NCBI GenBank assembly: GCA_012837335.1
Contig: DURM01000014.1
Coordinates: forward strand, 1-37,825
Direction: 5' to 3'
Source of the DNA: Bacillota bacterium
Lineage (GTDB): Bacteria; Bacillota; Limnochordia; Darwinibacteriales; DTU012
Length of the DNA stretch: 37,825 bases
In this document: positions 19,412-33,869 of the stretch, piece by piece
Layout of the letters: each line of letters begins with the position of its first letter
Position numbering within the stretch: the first letter of the stretch is position 1
Position numbers and translations under genes: made by a program
The notes under the pieces: model-generated
Told to the model about the DNA's origin: nothing
The model's input: only the letters and a program-made list of their open reading frames with translations
Database searches by the model: none

Positions 19412-19443
19412 AAAAAAAAGAGACGCTAGATTTGGCGCGTCTC
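19412..19443 (-). terminator. Intrinsic terminator of the XRE-MFS operon
   Basis: GAGACGC and GCGTCTC (19420-19443) form a 7-bp stem on the minus strand, with eight T following. It overlaps the MFS stop codon. Confidence 0.85.
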
Positions 19444-20706
19444 CGCAGCTGCCGGTAGATACAGCTCTGCAATCGATCGGGAACAAGCGAGACCAACAGC
19501 AAAAATGCACATCGCAGAGCCGGAAATAAAAAACAGCCAGTAGATCGGCACCGCATCGACCAAAACTCCAACTACTGCCGTGGATAGGGGAACAAGCATG
19601 TTGACAGTGCTGTCGACCAAGCCGAAAACCCGCCCGCGATAATGATCGGGAACCAATTCCTGCATCATGGTTTTAAAAGGGACATTAACCTGAACCAAGA
19701 ACAAACCTGTTAAGAAGTTTGGCAGGACCATAAAAATCAGGATTCCCACCCTTGATAACCGAGAGTATACTGCTGGCATACCCAGCAGTCCTAAAACTGC
19801 AGCTAAAATCCCCACCACTAGAACCCCGGACGACAACAGCTTGTCTTTAGCAAACCTGCGCGTCAGAAAACCGATTAAAAGTGTGCCTAACAGCAGCCCC
19901 GCTGGATAGCTTGAGTGGGCAAATCCGTAGAGTTTCGGATCCATCAGCAGAACTTCTTTGCCCAAATAAGGGTAAGCCACAGCATAAATCGGATTGAGCG
20001 CGAAATTCATTCCCAACGCAAACAGGATTAAGGTGCGGAGTCCAACATGGCCCCATAAATAAGTAAATCCGGATTTAAGCTTTGAGAAAAACTGAACTTC
20101 TATTTCGCTTTTTACACGCTTAGGAAAGCGAATAAACATCTCCGAAACTGCTGAAAGCAAAAACGAGATGCCGGTAATCAGAAATACACCGCCATATCCC
20201 GCGGTACCCAACAGAAAGGCGCCAGCAATCGGACCAAGGATACCTGTGGCACTCTGGCTGAAGCTGTCGCGGGCATTAGCCTGTACAAGCTCGTCTTTGC
20301 TCACTAAATTCGGTAGCGAGGCGCTGATTGCTGGGTTAAACAGCACAGCGCAGAGCGATTGCACCACCGAGGCCGCAAACAGCACCGGCAATGTGAGCAT
20401 TCCGTTCAGGTAAATCGCTGCCAGAGCCAGCATCAGCAGACCGCGAACCACGTCCATGGAAACGATCAGTATTTTGCGGTCGATTGTATCGGCAATTACA
20501 CCGCTGAACGGGAGCAGAATTATCATGGGAAGAGAGGAAATCAGGAGCAGCGTACCTAACACCGCTCCAGAACCGGTTAAATCAAGGACGAGCCAGGTAA
20601 GGGCAAAATAGTGGATCCCGTCTCCCAGCTGAGAAACTAATTTCCCCATAAAAAGCAATCCGTAATCACGGTTAATAAAAACTCTTTGTAAGAAATGTTT
20701 CAGCAT
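19426..20706 (-). CDS. MFS transporter (macrolide-efflux-like)
   Basis: A 426-residue major facilitator protein with twelve predicted helices in two halves. The start (FINRDYGLLFMGKLVSQLGDGIHYFALTWLVLDLTGSG) and the loop GVIADTIDRKILIVSMDVVRG (the conserved loop 2-3 motif) match the MefA/EntS-type multidrug branch (PF05977/PF07690). It probably exports a drug or metabolite by H+ antiport. It lies 19 nt downstream of the XRE/beta-solenoid gene and is probably co-transcribed and regulated with it. Substrate unknown. Confidence 0.87.
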   Translation of the reverse strand: MLKHFLQRVFINRDYGLLFMGKLVSQLGDGIHYFALTWLVLDLTGSGAVLGTLLLISSLPMIILLPFSGVIADTIDRKILIVSMDVVRGLLMLALAAIYLNGMLTLPVLFAASVVQSLCAVLFNPAISASLPNLVSKDELVQANARDSFSQSATGILGPIAGAFLLGTAGYGGVFLITGISFLLSAVSEMFIRFPKRVKSEIEVQFFSKLKSGFTYLWGHVGLRTLILFALGMNFALNPIYAVAYPYLGKEVLLMDPKLYGFAHSSYPAGLLLGTLLIGFLTRRFAKDKLLSSGVLVVGILAAVLGLLGMPAVYSRLSRVGILIFMVLPNFLTGLFLVQVNVPFKTMMQELVPDHYRGRVFGLVDSTVNMLVPLSTAVVGVLVDAVPIYWLFFISGSAMCIFAVGLACSRSIAELYLPAAAETRQI

Positions 20707-20725: not shown

Positions 20726-21877
20726 CTAGCCTCTCTGCAGGATCTTGATTGAAGAGTGCTGACTGTGTTTTTCTTTAGACCCCTCGATCACTCTGCCTAA
20801 CACTACATCGCTGGCACCATGGCAGGTAATATCAGCGGTTCGCGCTGTTAAACCTTGAGCCTTTATATCCCCCGCACCGGAAATCTCAGCCTTGAACTCA
20901 TCAATATTGCCGCCGCTGACACTGATATCTCCGGCTCCGCTGACATGAGCTTCGAACCTTATTGTAACCTCATTCAGTTCAACATTCCCTGCACCGCTGA
21001 TAGCCAGCTCTGCTTCGCCAATCTTGTCAGCTTTTAAATCGCCGCTGCCGCTGATTCGACACTTTAAGACATCGAAATCAGTGAGTATGACATCACCTGA
21101 GCCGCCGATCTGCACTAATCCATTCTTAAAAGGTACCTGCACCTCACCACTGCCGGATCCGCCAATCCTCAGCTCTAAATCAGAACCGCTGTCTTGGCCA
21201 ATCATGATCTCAATTCGGTTTCTCTCACCGCGGTGATAGTTTTGCTGTTTTTGGACTGCAGCAAGCAGCGAACCGCTCTGAGAAACCTGCAGACCGCCAA
21301 TGAAAGGTGCTGAACCTACCGCTTTTAGCCTTGTATAGGTATCAGGCGAGCGCAGAACCTGGAAAGTGGCATTGGAGATTTCCAGGCGCAGCGAGGCGAT
21401 CCCGCTGAATACTTCGCTGAGCTCAGTCTGCCCTTGATCATTCTCGTCGTACTCATCGGCGAAATCAAAGCAGATCTCACCTGAACCTTTATTGATGATT
21501 TCCTGCCGCCGCAGATCTGCGCTGCTGCCATCTTTAAAAACAACCGTATCCTCGTTTGTTACAGCCACTTCCTTATCCGAGTAACACAGCAGACCTTGAT
21601 AGGTATGGATCAGTTTTAACCGGCCTTTCTGTTTAGGAATAGCTGATGCTTCCGCTTTTGTTGGATCGATACCGCCTCCGAACAGCTTTTCAATCGTGGT
21701 ATTCAGTTCCTGCGCCAGCCGGGGAAGCATGGTTATTTCCGGAAAGCAGATTTCATTTTCCCATTTGGAAACAGCCTGAGCGGTAATATTCAGGCGTTCA
21801 GCCAGCTCCTCCTGGGTTAAGCCCGCCAGTTTCCGAAATGAAGCAATCCGCCTGCCAAAACCATAAATGTTATACAT
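20726..21877 (-). CDS. XRE-type HTH regulator fused to a GIN/DUF2807-like beta-solenoid
   Basis: A 383-residue protein with two unrelated parts. Residues 8-65 form an XRE/Cro helix-turn-helix (FRKLAGLTQEELAERLNITAQAVSKWENE). After a linker and a short beta region (about 85-215), residues 235-360 hold seven rungs of a repeat with SG(S/A)G(D/E/N)(V/I/L) every 17-20 residues, beginning at about 241, 258, 276, 294, 313, 333 and 353. Such repeats form the right-handed beta-helix of the GIN/DUF2807 family, which elsewhere sits outside the membrane. No signal peptide or membrane helix is present, so this one should be cytoplasmic. ATG 21875-21877 follows GGGAGTGG. It heads an operon with the MFS exporter, so it probably controls that exporter. 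What the solenoid senses is unknown. Confidence 0.85.
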   Translation of the reverse strand: MYNIYGFGRRIASFRKLAGLTQEELAERLNITAQAVSKWENEICFPEITMLPRLAQELNTTIEKLFGGGIDPTKAEASAIPKQKGRLKLIHTYQGLLCYSDKEVAVTNEDTVVFKDGSSADLRRQEIINKGSGEICFDFADEYDENDQGQTELSEVFSGIASLRLEISNATFQVLRSPDTYTRLKAVGSAPFIGGLQVSQSGSLLAAVQKQQNYHRGERNRIEIMIGQDSGSDLELRIGGSGSGEVQVPFKNGLVQIGGSGDVILTDFDVLKCRISGSGDLKADKIGEAELAISGAGNVELNEVTIRFEAHVSGAGDISVSGGNIDEFKAEISGAGDIKAQGLTARTADITCHGASDVVLGRVIEGSKEKHSQHSSIKILQRG

Positions 21878-21909
21878 GTGACCACTCCCTGCACGTATTT
21901 GCTAGTCTA

Positions 21910-21938
21910 ATTATCCTGTGAAGTGCAGTCGTTATCCA
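21910..21938 (-). promoter_or_regulatory. Predicted promoter of the XRE-MFS operon
   Basis: On the minus strand TGGATA (21933-21938), a 17-nt spacer and GATAAT (21910-21915) lie 32 nt upstream of the start. Two and one mismatches to the consensus boxes. Confidence 0.6.
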
Positions 21939-21980
21939 GATATTGCTGGTTTAAGTAAAAGCCTTTTGCCGGCATAAAAC

Positions 21981-22011
21981 TCAACCACTGGTTGAATAAA
22001 CCTGTGGTTGA
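21981..22011. promoter_or_regulatory. Operator-like palindrome plus third half-site
   Basis: TCAACCA-C-TGGTTGA (21981-21995) is a perfect 7-1-7 palindrome. A further TGGTTGA lies at 22005-22011, 16 nt from the matching half-site. The group sits in the divergent gap between the XRE operon and the diguanylate cyclase, about 43 nt upstream of the XRE -35 box, and is a candidate binding site for the XRE protein. Confidence 0.5.
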
Positions 22012-22142
22012 ATTAATCTCAATTTGTTCCGAAAATATTAATTAAAACATTACCTGGGTTATAAAGGATACTTAAGCGCCGACAAAGAATATAACCTAGT
22101 TTCTAAGTATTATAGATTCCAAGATTTTTAGAGGTGTGGCAT

Positions 22143-23159
22143 ATGTTTAAAATTAGAAGACTTGATTCCAAAACCATGTTTATCATAACAACCCTGCTGA
22201 TCATATTGATCGGTGCCGGCGACTTCCATTCCGGGCAGCTAACTTACTCATTGAACCGAGACGCAGATATTATCAACAATTTAGGGCTTATCCGCGGATC
22301 GATTCAGCGCTTAATTAAACTCGAATTAGCAGATGCGCCCAATGATGAGCTGGTTCAAAGCATCGATCAACTAATCAACGAACACCTAGATGATTACCCC
22401 GAATTTATGACTGAATTGGCAGCCCAGTGGGAGCAGATTAAACTGCAGATACTGCTCTACCGGAACAACCCTGCCGATAGCAGCCCTAGTACACTATTAT
22501 TGGTAAGCGAACAGATCTGGACTACTGCCGATGATGCGGTTATCCATGTGCAGAGATTATCAAAACAGCATTTAAATGAGTTTCGGCTTATATTTGCCTT
22601 AAACTTCTTTACCCTAGTGCTGGCAGTGATTATTCTGATTTGGCTGCGGCGCTATGTCCAGAATCAGTTAGAGTATATGGTGCGCTATGATGCGTTAACC
22701 AGCGCCATAACCAAAGCCTACTTCAAGCGCATCCTCCCCAGAGAAATGGATCTGGCGAGCAAAACCGAGACTCCCCTTTCCCTGATTGTTGTGGATGTAG
22801 ATAAGTTCAAGCAGATCAACGATACCCGCGGCCATATCACCGGTGACTTTGCTCTGCAGCAGATCTCGGAAATGCTCATAGAAAACTTGAGAGGCACAGA
22901 CTTTTTGGCCCGCATCGGCGGTGATGAATTTGTGATTATCGCACCCAACACAACCTTATGCGAAGCGAAAAAGCTGGCTGATCGGCTCCAGAGCGTAGTT
23001 AACGCCGCGGACTTTCCGGGTATCGGTCCACTCTCCATCAGCTTAGGCATCGCCGAATATGATTACAAAGAAAGCATGGATCAGCTGTTTGAGCGAGCTG
23101 ATCGAGCTCTCTATCAAGCCAAAGCCGATGGCCGCAATCAAGCAGCTGTATGCAGTTAA
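22143..23159 (+). CDS. Membrane-bound GGDEF diguanylate cyclase with PilJ-like sensor
   Basis: A 338-residue diguanylate cyclase making cyclic di-GMP from two GTP. The first membrane helix is at about 12-27 (FIITTLLIILIGAG). The extracytoplasmic part (about 28-148) resembles the type IV pili/nitrate-nitrite sensor domain PF13675 (NLGLIRGSIQRLIKLEL). A second helix lies at about 150-168 (FALNFFTLVLAVIILIW). The GGDEF domain is about 178-336 with the active-site GGDEF at 259-263 and an I-site RGTD at 250-253 (RGTDFLARIGGDEF), so product inhibition is expected. Substrate loops DVDKFKQINDTRGH are present. ATG 22143 follows AGGTG; the frame also opens at GTG 22134. It ends three bases before the convergent rhamnosidase stop. 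Confidence 0.92.
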   Translation: MFKIRRLDSKTMFIITTLLIILIGAGDFHSGQLTYSLNRDADIINNLGLIRGSIQRLIKLELADAPNDELVQSIDQLINEHLDDYPEFMTELAAQWEQIKLQILLYRNNPADSSPSTLLLVSEQIWTTADDAVIHVQRLSKQHLNEFRLIFALNFFTLVLAVIILIWLRRYVQNQLEYMVRYDALTSAITKAYFKRILPREMDLASKTETPLSLIVVDVDKFKQINDTRGHITGDFALQQISEMLIENLRGTDFLARIGGDEFVIIAPNTTLCEAKKLADRLQSVVNAADFPGIGPLSISLGIAEYDYKESMDQLFERADRALYQAKADGRNQAAVCS

Positions 23160-26310: not shown

Positions 26311-27303
26311 TTACTTATTTATGTTTTGATGAAGCATTTTACGATAGCAGTAGATTATAAAGAAAGAGCTGATTGGTCCGGTAATTAGAACGCCCAAGCC
26401 AAAGAACAAGGCTCCCAGCATATTAAGGACCATAACCACTAACAGCATACCCAGCGTCAGAAAAATGTTGTCTCGAACAATCCTCATGCTGATGCTGAGC
26501 GCCTCAACAGCTCCTACCGGCCGGTCTACTACAGCTACAGGTGCAAGCCAAACAAAGAAAGCGAAGATAAAACCGGGAAGCACCAGAAGAAAAGCTCCAA
26601 GCATGGTTCCAAGCGCCGCTAAAAAGCCAACGCCGATGAAAGGCAGCACCCGATCAGTGGCTGAAAAAATATCTGACAAATCAACTTGCTGACGATCAAA
26701 TAGTTTAAAAAAGATTTTCTGTACACCTACAGCCACAATCATCGACAGCACAATACCCGCAAGACCAAATACTACACTCAGAGGCGGAATGATCATAGAA
26801 ACCAATCCAGCAATCACTGCTGTTGCAAAAGGCGCGATTAAAAGAACCAGCTCTAATAGAAGCAGAAATCCCAAATTTTCTCCCAACAGGTTCCATCCGG
26901 TTTTCAGACCATCAACTATGGTATCAATTACAGCAAGCCTACCATTAGAATCAAGCTTAGGATCTTGAAGCATTGTTTTACAGTGCACGCAGAATACAGC
27001 TGCCTGCGGAATTGTTTCGCCGCAGTGTGGGCATGATTTCGTATCCCCTGATAAAGAAGGACCGCTGGGTTCATCGCTGTGGAAAACTGTTTCCTGCGGG
27101 CTCTTATGGAAATCCGGGTCATAACTCTCAGCATCGACAAAACTTCCATCACAGCCAACAACTGCGCATCCCTGGTTTTCTACCCAGCATTGGTGGTGAT
27201 GGGGAGTATTACATTTACTGCAGATTAATGCTGTATCTTCAGCTGTAAAGGCTTTCTGGCAGTAAGGGCAGTACTTCCCGGCAATAGAATTCAAGATACT
27301 CAC
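26311..27303 (-). CDS. Prokaryotic RING-finger/zinc-ribbon membrane protein
   Basis: A 330-residue protein. Residues 1-50 hold a RING-type zinc cluster (YCPYCQKAF, ICSKCNTPHHHQCW, GCAVVGC), matching the prokaryotic RING family (PF14446). A second zinc ribbon is at about 88-112 (CPHCGETIPQAAVFCVHC). From about 130 there are about six hydrophobic segments resembling membrane domains of the DUF975/glycerophosphodiester-phosphodiesterase-associated type. The RING region of such proteins faces the cytoplasm and probably mediates protein contacts. The start is uncertain: GTG 27301-27303 has little ribosome binding site, while TTG 27292-27294 follows GAGGTGAG. Function unknown. Confidence 0.8.
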   Translation of the reverse strand: MSILNSIAGKYCPYCQKAFTAEDTALICSKCNTPHHHQCWVENQGCAVVGCDGSFVDAESYDPDFHKSPQETVFHSDEPSGPSLSGDTKSCPHCGETIPQAAVFCVHCKTMLQDPKLDSNGRLAVIDTIVDGLKTGWNLLGENLGFLLLLELVLLIAPFATAVIAGLVSMIIPPLSVVFGLAGIVLSMIVAVGVQKIFFKLFDRQQVDLSDIFSATDRVLPFIGVGFLAALGTMLGAFLLVLPGFIFAFFVWLAPVAVVDRPVGAVEALSISMRIVRDNIFLTLGMLLVVMVLNMLGALFFGLGVLITGPISSFFIIYCYRKMLHQNINK

Positions 27304-32141: not shown

Positions 32142-33869
32142 CTATTTGCGCTGCCAAACTCTCACCCAGTCAACTTCCATCAAACCAGGCCAAACTGTGG
32201 ATTCATTAGGATCGCCGCCCCACCCTCCAACAGCAAGATTGAGGATAATATACAAATTGCGCGACTGAGCGATCCACTCCTGATTGGTAAAGGCAGTGCC
32301 GATCTGTTCGCCATTAAGGTACCACCGCATATAAGTGGGAGTCCACTCAAATCCATACACGAAAAAGTCTTGGGATAAATCGTCCACTGTAAACTTCTGA
32401 TAATGAGACCACTTGTTATTCCAGGATGGCCCGTAATGATAATTGATGTGAAGTTCCCGCGGATTGCGGGTCAGAATTTCCATAATATCGACTTCCGGAG
32501 GCCAACCATCGCCCAACAGCCAAAACGCTGGCCAAAATCCTGGAGTACCGGGGACTTTGATCGCCGCTTCGATATAGCCATAAGTAAAATGAAACTTGCC
32601 GTGAGATGTAATAACTCCTGATGTGTAGTCCAGATATTGGACACCATCATGTTCCACAAATAGAGGCGCATCGGGATGCCGCTCATTCTCGGCCTTAATG
32701 GTCAGAATACCATCACTGACAATCACATTCTCCGGCAGCATATAGGCTCTGTGATTATGAGTATGCCCCGTTCCCCACGGATAATTGTAGCTCCACTTAG
32801 TCATATCAAGACGATCGCCATCGAAATCATCGAAAAACACCAGCTCCCATTCGCCGGGATGCTCCAAAGTCGGCAGGCCCTGACTTTCGATTCGTTCCTT
32901 AATAAGCTGTTTCGCAGCATCCTTAAATACCATGAGATTTTGCTCCTCGGAAGATATTTGAGTTTGAAGCCATTGGAACAACGCTTCTGCATCAGAGTCA
33001 CTGTTAAGCTGGTTAAGATTTGGAGCCTGGGAAGCGGTAACAGCTAATGCCGCCCAGCGCGCCTTCATACCATTCTCTGGATTCACCACAATCGCAACCA
33101 AATCAGGCAGGGCTTCCGGTATCTGCTGCGGAACCCGCCCGATTAAAACCGCCGCGGCCCACTGGTATTCAGGATGATCTGACTTCAGCATGGTTTGAGC
33201 CAGTTCCATTATCGCGGCCTGGTTTCTCCTTAAAGCGCGGTTTGCGGCAAGAGTTACTTCTAGCTGCAGGTCATCAAAGGCCACTGCCAGCGCTGATAAA
33301 ACATCCTCGGACAAGATTCCGATCTCGTTTAATAGATCAACCGCAGCTTTTCTTACACCGCTGTTGAAATCCTCAGCTACAACCTGGCAGAGTACGGGTA
33401 TTATCTCAGCTGCATTTTCCTCATCCACAAGCCGTCCTAAAGAACCTAAAGCCTGGATCCTCACCTCAGCTGCCCCATCATCAATTGCGGCAATCAGCGC
33501 AGCAATCTGCTCACTTGAGCCAAGTCTGCCGATCAGCCGCGCTGCCGCCTGCCTAGCCCTTACGGTTCCTGTGCCTTCAACTAACAACGCCTCCAAATAG
33601 GGCAGAACACCTGACCCAATTTTTTCCAAGGCATTGCTGGCAGCATAGCTTACCTCATAAACCTCATCACTCAAAGCCTGCACGATCAGCTCTGCTCCCG
33701 GCAATGCATCCGGACCCAGCTCGCCTAACTGAACTAAACTGGTACGGCGCAGTTCAGGATCGGCACTTTTCAAATCCAGAATTAGGCTCTCAACATTCTC
33801 TGTCCCACTAAAAGCTGAACTTGACAAAACCAACAGCAAAATGAGACTAAAGAAGGCTATCCTCCTCAC
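32142..33869 (-). CDS. Secreted HEAT-repeat/GH16 fusion (beta-glucanase-like)
   Basis: A 575-residue exported enzyme in two parts. A Sec signal peptide covers about 1-22 (IAFFSLILLLVLSSSAFS). Residues 25-330 are a HEAT/PBS-lyase-type repeat solenoid (for example DEVYEVSYAASNALEKIGSGVLPYLEALL and AAEVRIQALGSLGRLVDEENAAEIIPVL). Residues 340-575 are a complete glycoside hydrolase family 16 domain. The catalytic motif is E459-V-D461-I-M-E464, with Glu459 the nucleophile and Glu464 the acid/base, and a Trp-rich cleft surrounds it (GFWPAFWLL). GH16 enzymes cut beta-1,3 or beta-1,3/1,4-glucans, agar or similar polymers; laminarinase/lichenase is the likely class. A HEAT array in place of a carbohydrate-binding module is unusual. 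GTG 33867-33869 follows AAGGAGGGG. Confidence 0.9.
   Translation of the reverse strand: MRRIAFFSLILLLVLSSSAFSGTENVESLILDLKSADPELRRTSLVQLGELGPDALPGAELIVQALSDEVYEVSYAASNALEKIGSGVLPYLEALLVEGTGTVRARQAAARLIGRLGSSEQIAALIAAIDDGAAEVRIQALGSLGRLVDEENAAEIIPVLCQVVAEDFNSGVRKAAVDLLNEIGILSEDVLSALAVAFDDLQLEVTLAANRALRRNQAAIMELAQTMLKSDHPEYQWAAAVLIGRVPQQIPEALPDLVAIVVNPENGMKARWAALAVTASQAPNLNQLNSDSDAEALFQWLQTQISSEEQNLMVFKDAAKQLIKERIESQGLPTLEHPGEWELVFFDDFDGDRLDMTKWSYNYPWGTGHTHNHRAYMLPENVIVSDGILTIKAENERHPDAPLFVEHDGVQYLDYTSGVITSHGKFHFTYGYIEAAIKVPGTPGFWPAFWLLGDGWPPEVDIMEILTRNPRELHINYHYGPSWNNKWSHYQKFTVDDLSQDFFVYGFEWTPTYMRWYLNGEQIGTAFTNQEWIAQSRNLYIILNLAVGGWGGDPNESTVWPGLMEVDWVRVWQRK

Follow-up and report, generated by a model that had tools for sequence, protein, structure and literature searches.

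Gene, predicted domains and fold

The window analysed here, a stretch of 37,825 nucleotides, carries on its minus strand a gene (20726-21877) for a 383-residue protein, in agreement with the frame, strand and length given in an earlier note on this DNA. The product is composed of an XRE helix-turn-helix (HTH) domain (residues 8-66, positions 21680-21856), a low-confidence linker (residues 67-82, 21632-21679), an uncharacterised all-beta domain (residues 83-141, 21455-21631) and a Toastrack (DUF2807) beta-solenoid region (residues 151-383, 20729-21427), all encoded on the minus strand. The Pfam profile HTH_3 matched residues 11-65 (E=5e-11, 42.9 bits against a cut-off of 23), with the recognition helix at residues 33-40 (the AQAVSKWE region), and DUF2807 matched at E=1.8e-14 (54.3 bits against a curated cut-off of 24.2); a DUF4097 match fell below its cut-off. 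The solenoid region was also recovered by a PDB sequence-profile search (E=1.5e-18). Seven rung repeats found by motif scan (residues 241-358, 20804-21157, minus strand) begin at residues 241, 258, 276, 294, 313, 333 and 353, a spacing of 17-20 residues, and the last of them is degenerate (HGASDV). The rung motif, which was fitted to these same rungs, occurs seven times in the protein and at most twice in any of 10,000 residue shuffles; together with the two Pfam matches, these counts bear out the earlier description of an HTH domain followed by seven regularly spaced rungs.

An AlphaFold2 model built from the window protein and seven orthologs gave a mean pLDDT of 84.7 and a pTM of 0.59, which leaves the relative placement of the domains uncertain. 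Confidence was about 82-92 over most of the HTH domain, whose predicted helices match the ImmR structure 7t8i in Foldseek (TMt 0.90), and dropped below 50 at residues 68-78 in the linker. The continuous beta-solenoid for which the earlier note had looked to structure prediction was modelled at residues 221-383 with pLDDT of about 90-97; Foldseek aligned it to 3lyc (TMt 0.72) and 3jx8 (E=7.7e-7), and all 18 PDB fold matches at E<=0.001 were of the DUF2807 or "putative adhesin" kind. Taken together, the rung confidence of 90-97 and the match to 3lyc point to a single-stranded beta-helix, the fold of Toastrack domains. We detected no membrane helix, the 19-residue hydropathy peaking at 1.07, and no signal peptide was apparent by eye, as had been noted before. 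A cytoplasmic solenoid is less unusual than the earlier note supposed, since Toastrack domains (DUF4097/DUF2154/DUF2807) have already been proposed to be intracellular and to pass on the effect of docking via HTH domains that are fused to or associated with them (PMC11237479).

The middle beta domain had escaped the earlier note, as had the tandem palindromes described below. In an alignment of the eight orthologs, conservation outside the HTH domain was among the highest in residues 83-141 (pattern CYSDKEV...FKDGS) and at the C-terminal end (LGRVIEES...RG). The segment from C98 to V104 (CYSDKEV) is invariant in all eight HTH-bearing proteins, whereas the rungs vary and are degenerate in one ortholog (L056). 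Folded alone by AlphaFold2, the middle domain is predicted with confidence to be all-beta (core pLDDT 96-98), and searches of Pfam, PDB profiles and Foldseek returned no significant relative for it. A JMJD2-Tudor candidate was insignificant (E=0.076), and all Foldseek matches were likewise dismissed (best E 0.24).

Tandem palindromes upstream of the regulator

The gap upstream of the regulator (21878-22133) contains two tandem AACCNNNGGTT palindromes, or paired AACC-GGTT sites, at 21983-22009. Both the first, AACCACTGGTT (21983-21993), and the second, AACCTGTGGTT (21999-22009), which lies 16 nt from it, were identified as operator-like sites by motif scanning and congener alignment, and the palindrome block is among the best conserved upstream parts in an alignment of three congeners. 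A third, degenerate site may lie at 21941-21951 (reading AACCAGCAATA on the minus strand); the congener alignment supports it weakly, its AACC half being kept in two congeners. The sole promoter-like match, TGGATA-17-GATAAT (21910-21938, minus strand), is a consensus match no commoner than in shuffled sequence, with a -10 region conserved in two congeners. With some 45 nt between its -35 hexamer and the tandem sites upstream, simple steric repression does not fit unless another promoter is used, and either repression or activation would be compatible with this position. On the far side of the gap, a divergent GGDEF gene with an N-terminal hydrophobic segment occupies 22134-23159; it shares the operator-bearing gap with the regulator in two genomes (G000 and G001) but not in a third (G003).

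Beyond the window, four of the six further orthologs that could be tested (L050, L051, L054 and L055) have a perfect AACCNNNGGTT upstream, with shuffle p values of 0.002-0.024 that are post hoc, the motif having been derived from these same upstream regions; a single genus contributes three of the supporting regions. In each of the four, another copy, perfect or nearly so, lies at a distance of 16-25 nt; L053 carries a weak form of the site, and L056 lacks it. The tandem arrangement occurs once in the regulator's own genome, where a scan allowing one mismatch or none counted the palindrome ten times, versus two for a reversed-pattern control. Of the other nine sites, three precede paralogous XRE genes (on C84, C74 and C63) by about 60-120 nt.

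We then compared 85 XRE loci (L002-L006, L015-L017, L019-L035 and L143-L202), none of which had been used to derive the motif. A perfect site was present within 280 nt upstream of 11 of the 36 loci with a QA(V/I)S helix versus 1 of the 49 with other helices (Fisher p=2e-4, in a test that ignores relatedness and uses helix classes chosen once 25 of the loci had been inspected), against a random-window background of about 3%. This association, read from sequence, suggests a simple operator code linking recognition helix and AACCNNNGGTT. Perfect sites sit roughly 90-140 nt upstream of QA(V/I)S-helix HTH domains and almost never accompany KASVS or QTVS helices. The few notations of the operator that we searched in an incomplete literature collection gave no match. 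If confirmed, the link would allow likely operators to be assigned to many uncharacterised XRE regulators.

Relatives, the exporter neighbour and alternative readings

The order HTH, beta domain, solenoid is common to eight proteins, that of the window and seven orthologs, scattered sporadically in Bacillota. The HTH-bearing form turned up in five of about 470 Bacillota genomes searched (G000, G001, G003, G036 and G125), and a GTDB genome scan with the alignment as query added three Clostridia-type MAGs (L054-L056) to what appear to be the same four relatives; a single-protein query of contigs gave no match. The G036 ortholog is cut inside its HTH domain by a contig end, and G002 retains only a C-terminal remnant of the regulator. 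At positions 3-20 of the L052 contig (Firmicutes bacterium UBA3910), the frame reads MCIRDS joined to the HTH domain, a start that may be a sequencing-adapter artefact at the contig end. Three further relatives (L040, L041 and L043) have the middle domain and solenoid without an HTH domain, which makes the HTH an add-on module; in these, the CYSDKEV positions read LLSDKEV, VLSQKEV and AAYSDKDY. In a 249-genome sample, DUF2807 was present in nine genomes, four of which carry the HTH-beta-solenoid architecture, and no XRE HTH joined to DUF4097 was seen among the loci examined. The plasmids searched gave only Bacteroidota DUF2807-type matches and the viral contigs matches only in or just beyond the HTH domain, so a plasmid or phage origin of the regulator is not supported.

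Downstream of the regulator, after a 19-nt gap in which a consensus scan found no terminator-like site, a gene for an MFS protein of an exporter-like family (TIGR00900-related, below cut-off) lies on the same strand (19426-20706, minus) and is possibly co-transcribed, an arrangement that the earlier note had described correctly. Its GC and GC3 resemble those of its neighbours, and the idea of a foreign insert of unusual composition was dropped for this reason. Elsewhere in the window, one protein combines a glycoside hydrolase family 16 domain with HEAT repeats (32142-33869), and another has a Prok-RING_1 match (26311-27303).

From the MFS gene the earlier note had concluded that a sensor controls an efflux pump; in such a dedicated one-component drug regulator, the solenoid would bind the compound exported by the adjacent pump and release the operator. 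Exporters do occur at two of the seven orthologous loci, both of ABC type, a kind other than MFS, and just downstream (G125/L053, and G036/L052 after a GNAT gene), but none adjoins the regulator in L054-L056. The architecture, present in all seven orthologs, therefore does not always stand beside an exporter, a point that the earlier note had wanted checked. In two congeners (G001 and G003), a full-length ortholog is present without the MFS gene: in G001 the regulator keeps its flanks, with a GGDEF gene to one side and sugar kinase, HAD and DUF1624-like genes to the other, and in G003 a convergent DUF1624-like gene directly follows the regulator. Orthologs of the MFS protein (51-58% identity) are common across the order and the class but absent from the four other congeners searched; none was found adjoining such a regulator or with the operator at its start, and in G036 the two genes lie on different contigs. 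Given this comparison across congeners, MFS orthologs and other orthologs, the exporter link is incidental or at best loose, and we consider a drug regulator of this kind distinctly improbable. Most homologues lack a linked transporter, an outcome that the earlier note had itself taken to count against its reading, as would separate domains, which occur only in the three HTH-less relatives, or a missing solenoid, which is instead predicted. What stands of its reading is a predicted cytoplasmic DNA-binding protein with a continuous solenoid, probably a one-component regulator; that it serves to control an efflux pump is not supported, and the MFS gene is probably on the regulator's transcript in the window species only.

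Two other readings place the function within the protein itself. The middle domain could be the sensor, for instance of a thiol signal or a small ligand through Cys98, with the solenoid only holding subunits together; the invariance of C98-V104 above that of the rungs and the compact predicted fold speak for this, but Cys98 is not kept in the HTH-less relatives and no fold match points to a ligand site, and we regard it as unlikely. Alternatively, the protein might be architectural and not a switch, its solenoids joining by their ends to build filaments on DNA or along bactofilin-like polymers. A beta-helical fold is common to Toastrack and bactofilin, a relative without the HTH domain (L040) gave a weak, sub-cut-off Bactofilin match, and a bactofilin-like gene lies upstream of the G125 ortholog; that neighbour was seen once, however, and the own genome has just one tandem site, so such filaments seem very improbable to us. 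Immediately upstream of the G125 ortholog stand a DUF4004 regulator gene and two genes with bactofilin-like repeats (L053:4730-7361), one of these two with a weak, sub-cut-off Bactofilin match.

Proposed mechanism and comparison with known systems

Domain composition, fold, conservation, operator footprint and the lack of a conserved exporter are supported by computation. The reading that we favour, and think somewhat more probable than its negation, is that of a cytoplasmic one-component XRE autoregulator acting on tandem AACCNNNGGTT sites, with its C-terminal half as a docking or oligomerisation platform. The HTH domain would bind the palindromes, a tandem pair of which precedes its gene, and would thereby control that gene in one direction or the other. 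A flexible linker would join it to the small conserved beta domain and the Toastrack solenoid, which most likely offer a surface for docking or for self-association. Binding of a partner or signal there may alter the pairing of HTH domains on the tandem sites, and the downstream MFS gene would be carried along on the same transcript.

A larger claim can be put forward with considerable doubt: these proteins may form a new class of one-chain soluble stress regulators, in which Toastrack and the undescribed CYSDKEV domain directly control an XRE HTH domain on tandem AACCNNNGGTT, doing the job of a Lia-type membrane Toastrack protein and two-component pair. No XRE-beta-Toastrack protein, middle domain or operator of this kind was found in the literature searched. 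Pfam searches of the window neighbours and inspection of the ortholog flanks revealed no PspA, PspC, LiaF or two-component gene adjoining the regulator or its orthologs; a response-regulator/kinase pair in L054 is about 4.5-7 kb away, not adjacent, and PspC is present elsewhere in the regulator's own genome (C26).

Among known systems, the LiaF/LiaG/VraT-type proteins of the Toastrack superfamily in PSP/Lia systems share with the regulator a DUF2807-type solenoid that is predicted to be intracellular and tied to transcription control (PMC11237479); by comparison, the regulator is without a transmembrane, PspC or SHOCT part and has an XRE HTH and an extra beta domain in the same soluble chain. 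The Bacteroidota DUF2807 "putative adhesins" (3lyc, 3jx8, 3ljy and 4opw) have the same solenoid fold and a significant profile match, yet they bear lipoprotein, adhesin or pectinase annotations, whereas the regulator carries an HTH domain and no export signal. With XRE one-component repressors bearing QA(V/I)SKWE-type helices (the ImmR and SinR fold) it shares the HTH fold and an apparent upstream autoregulatory site, but its C-terminal module is a Toastrack solenoid with a beta domain in place of the usual modules. Toastrack is widespread with a role only conjectured, and the regulator, a soluble protein with this domain directly on its DNA-binding part and with a predicted operator, offers a simple setting for reading out the proposed docking as transcription.
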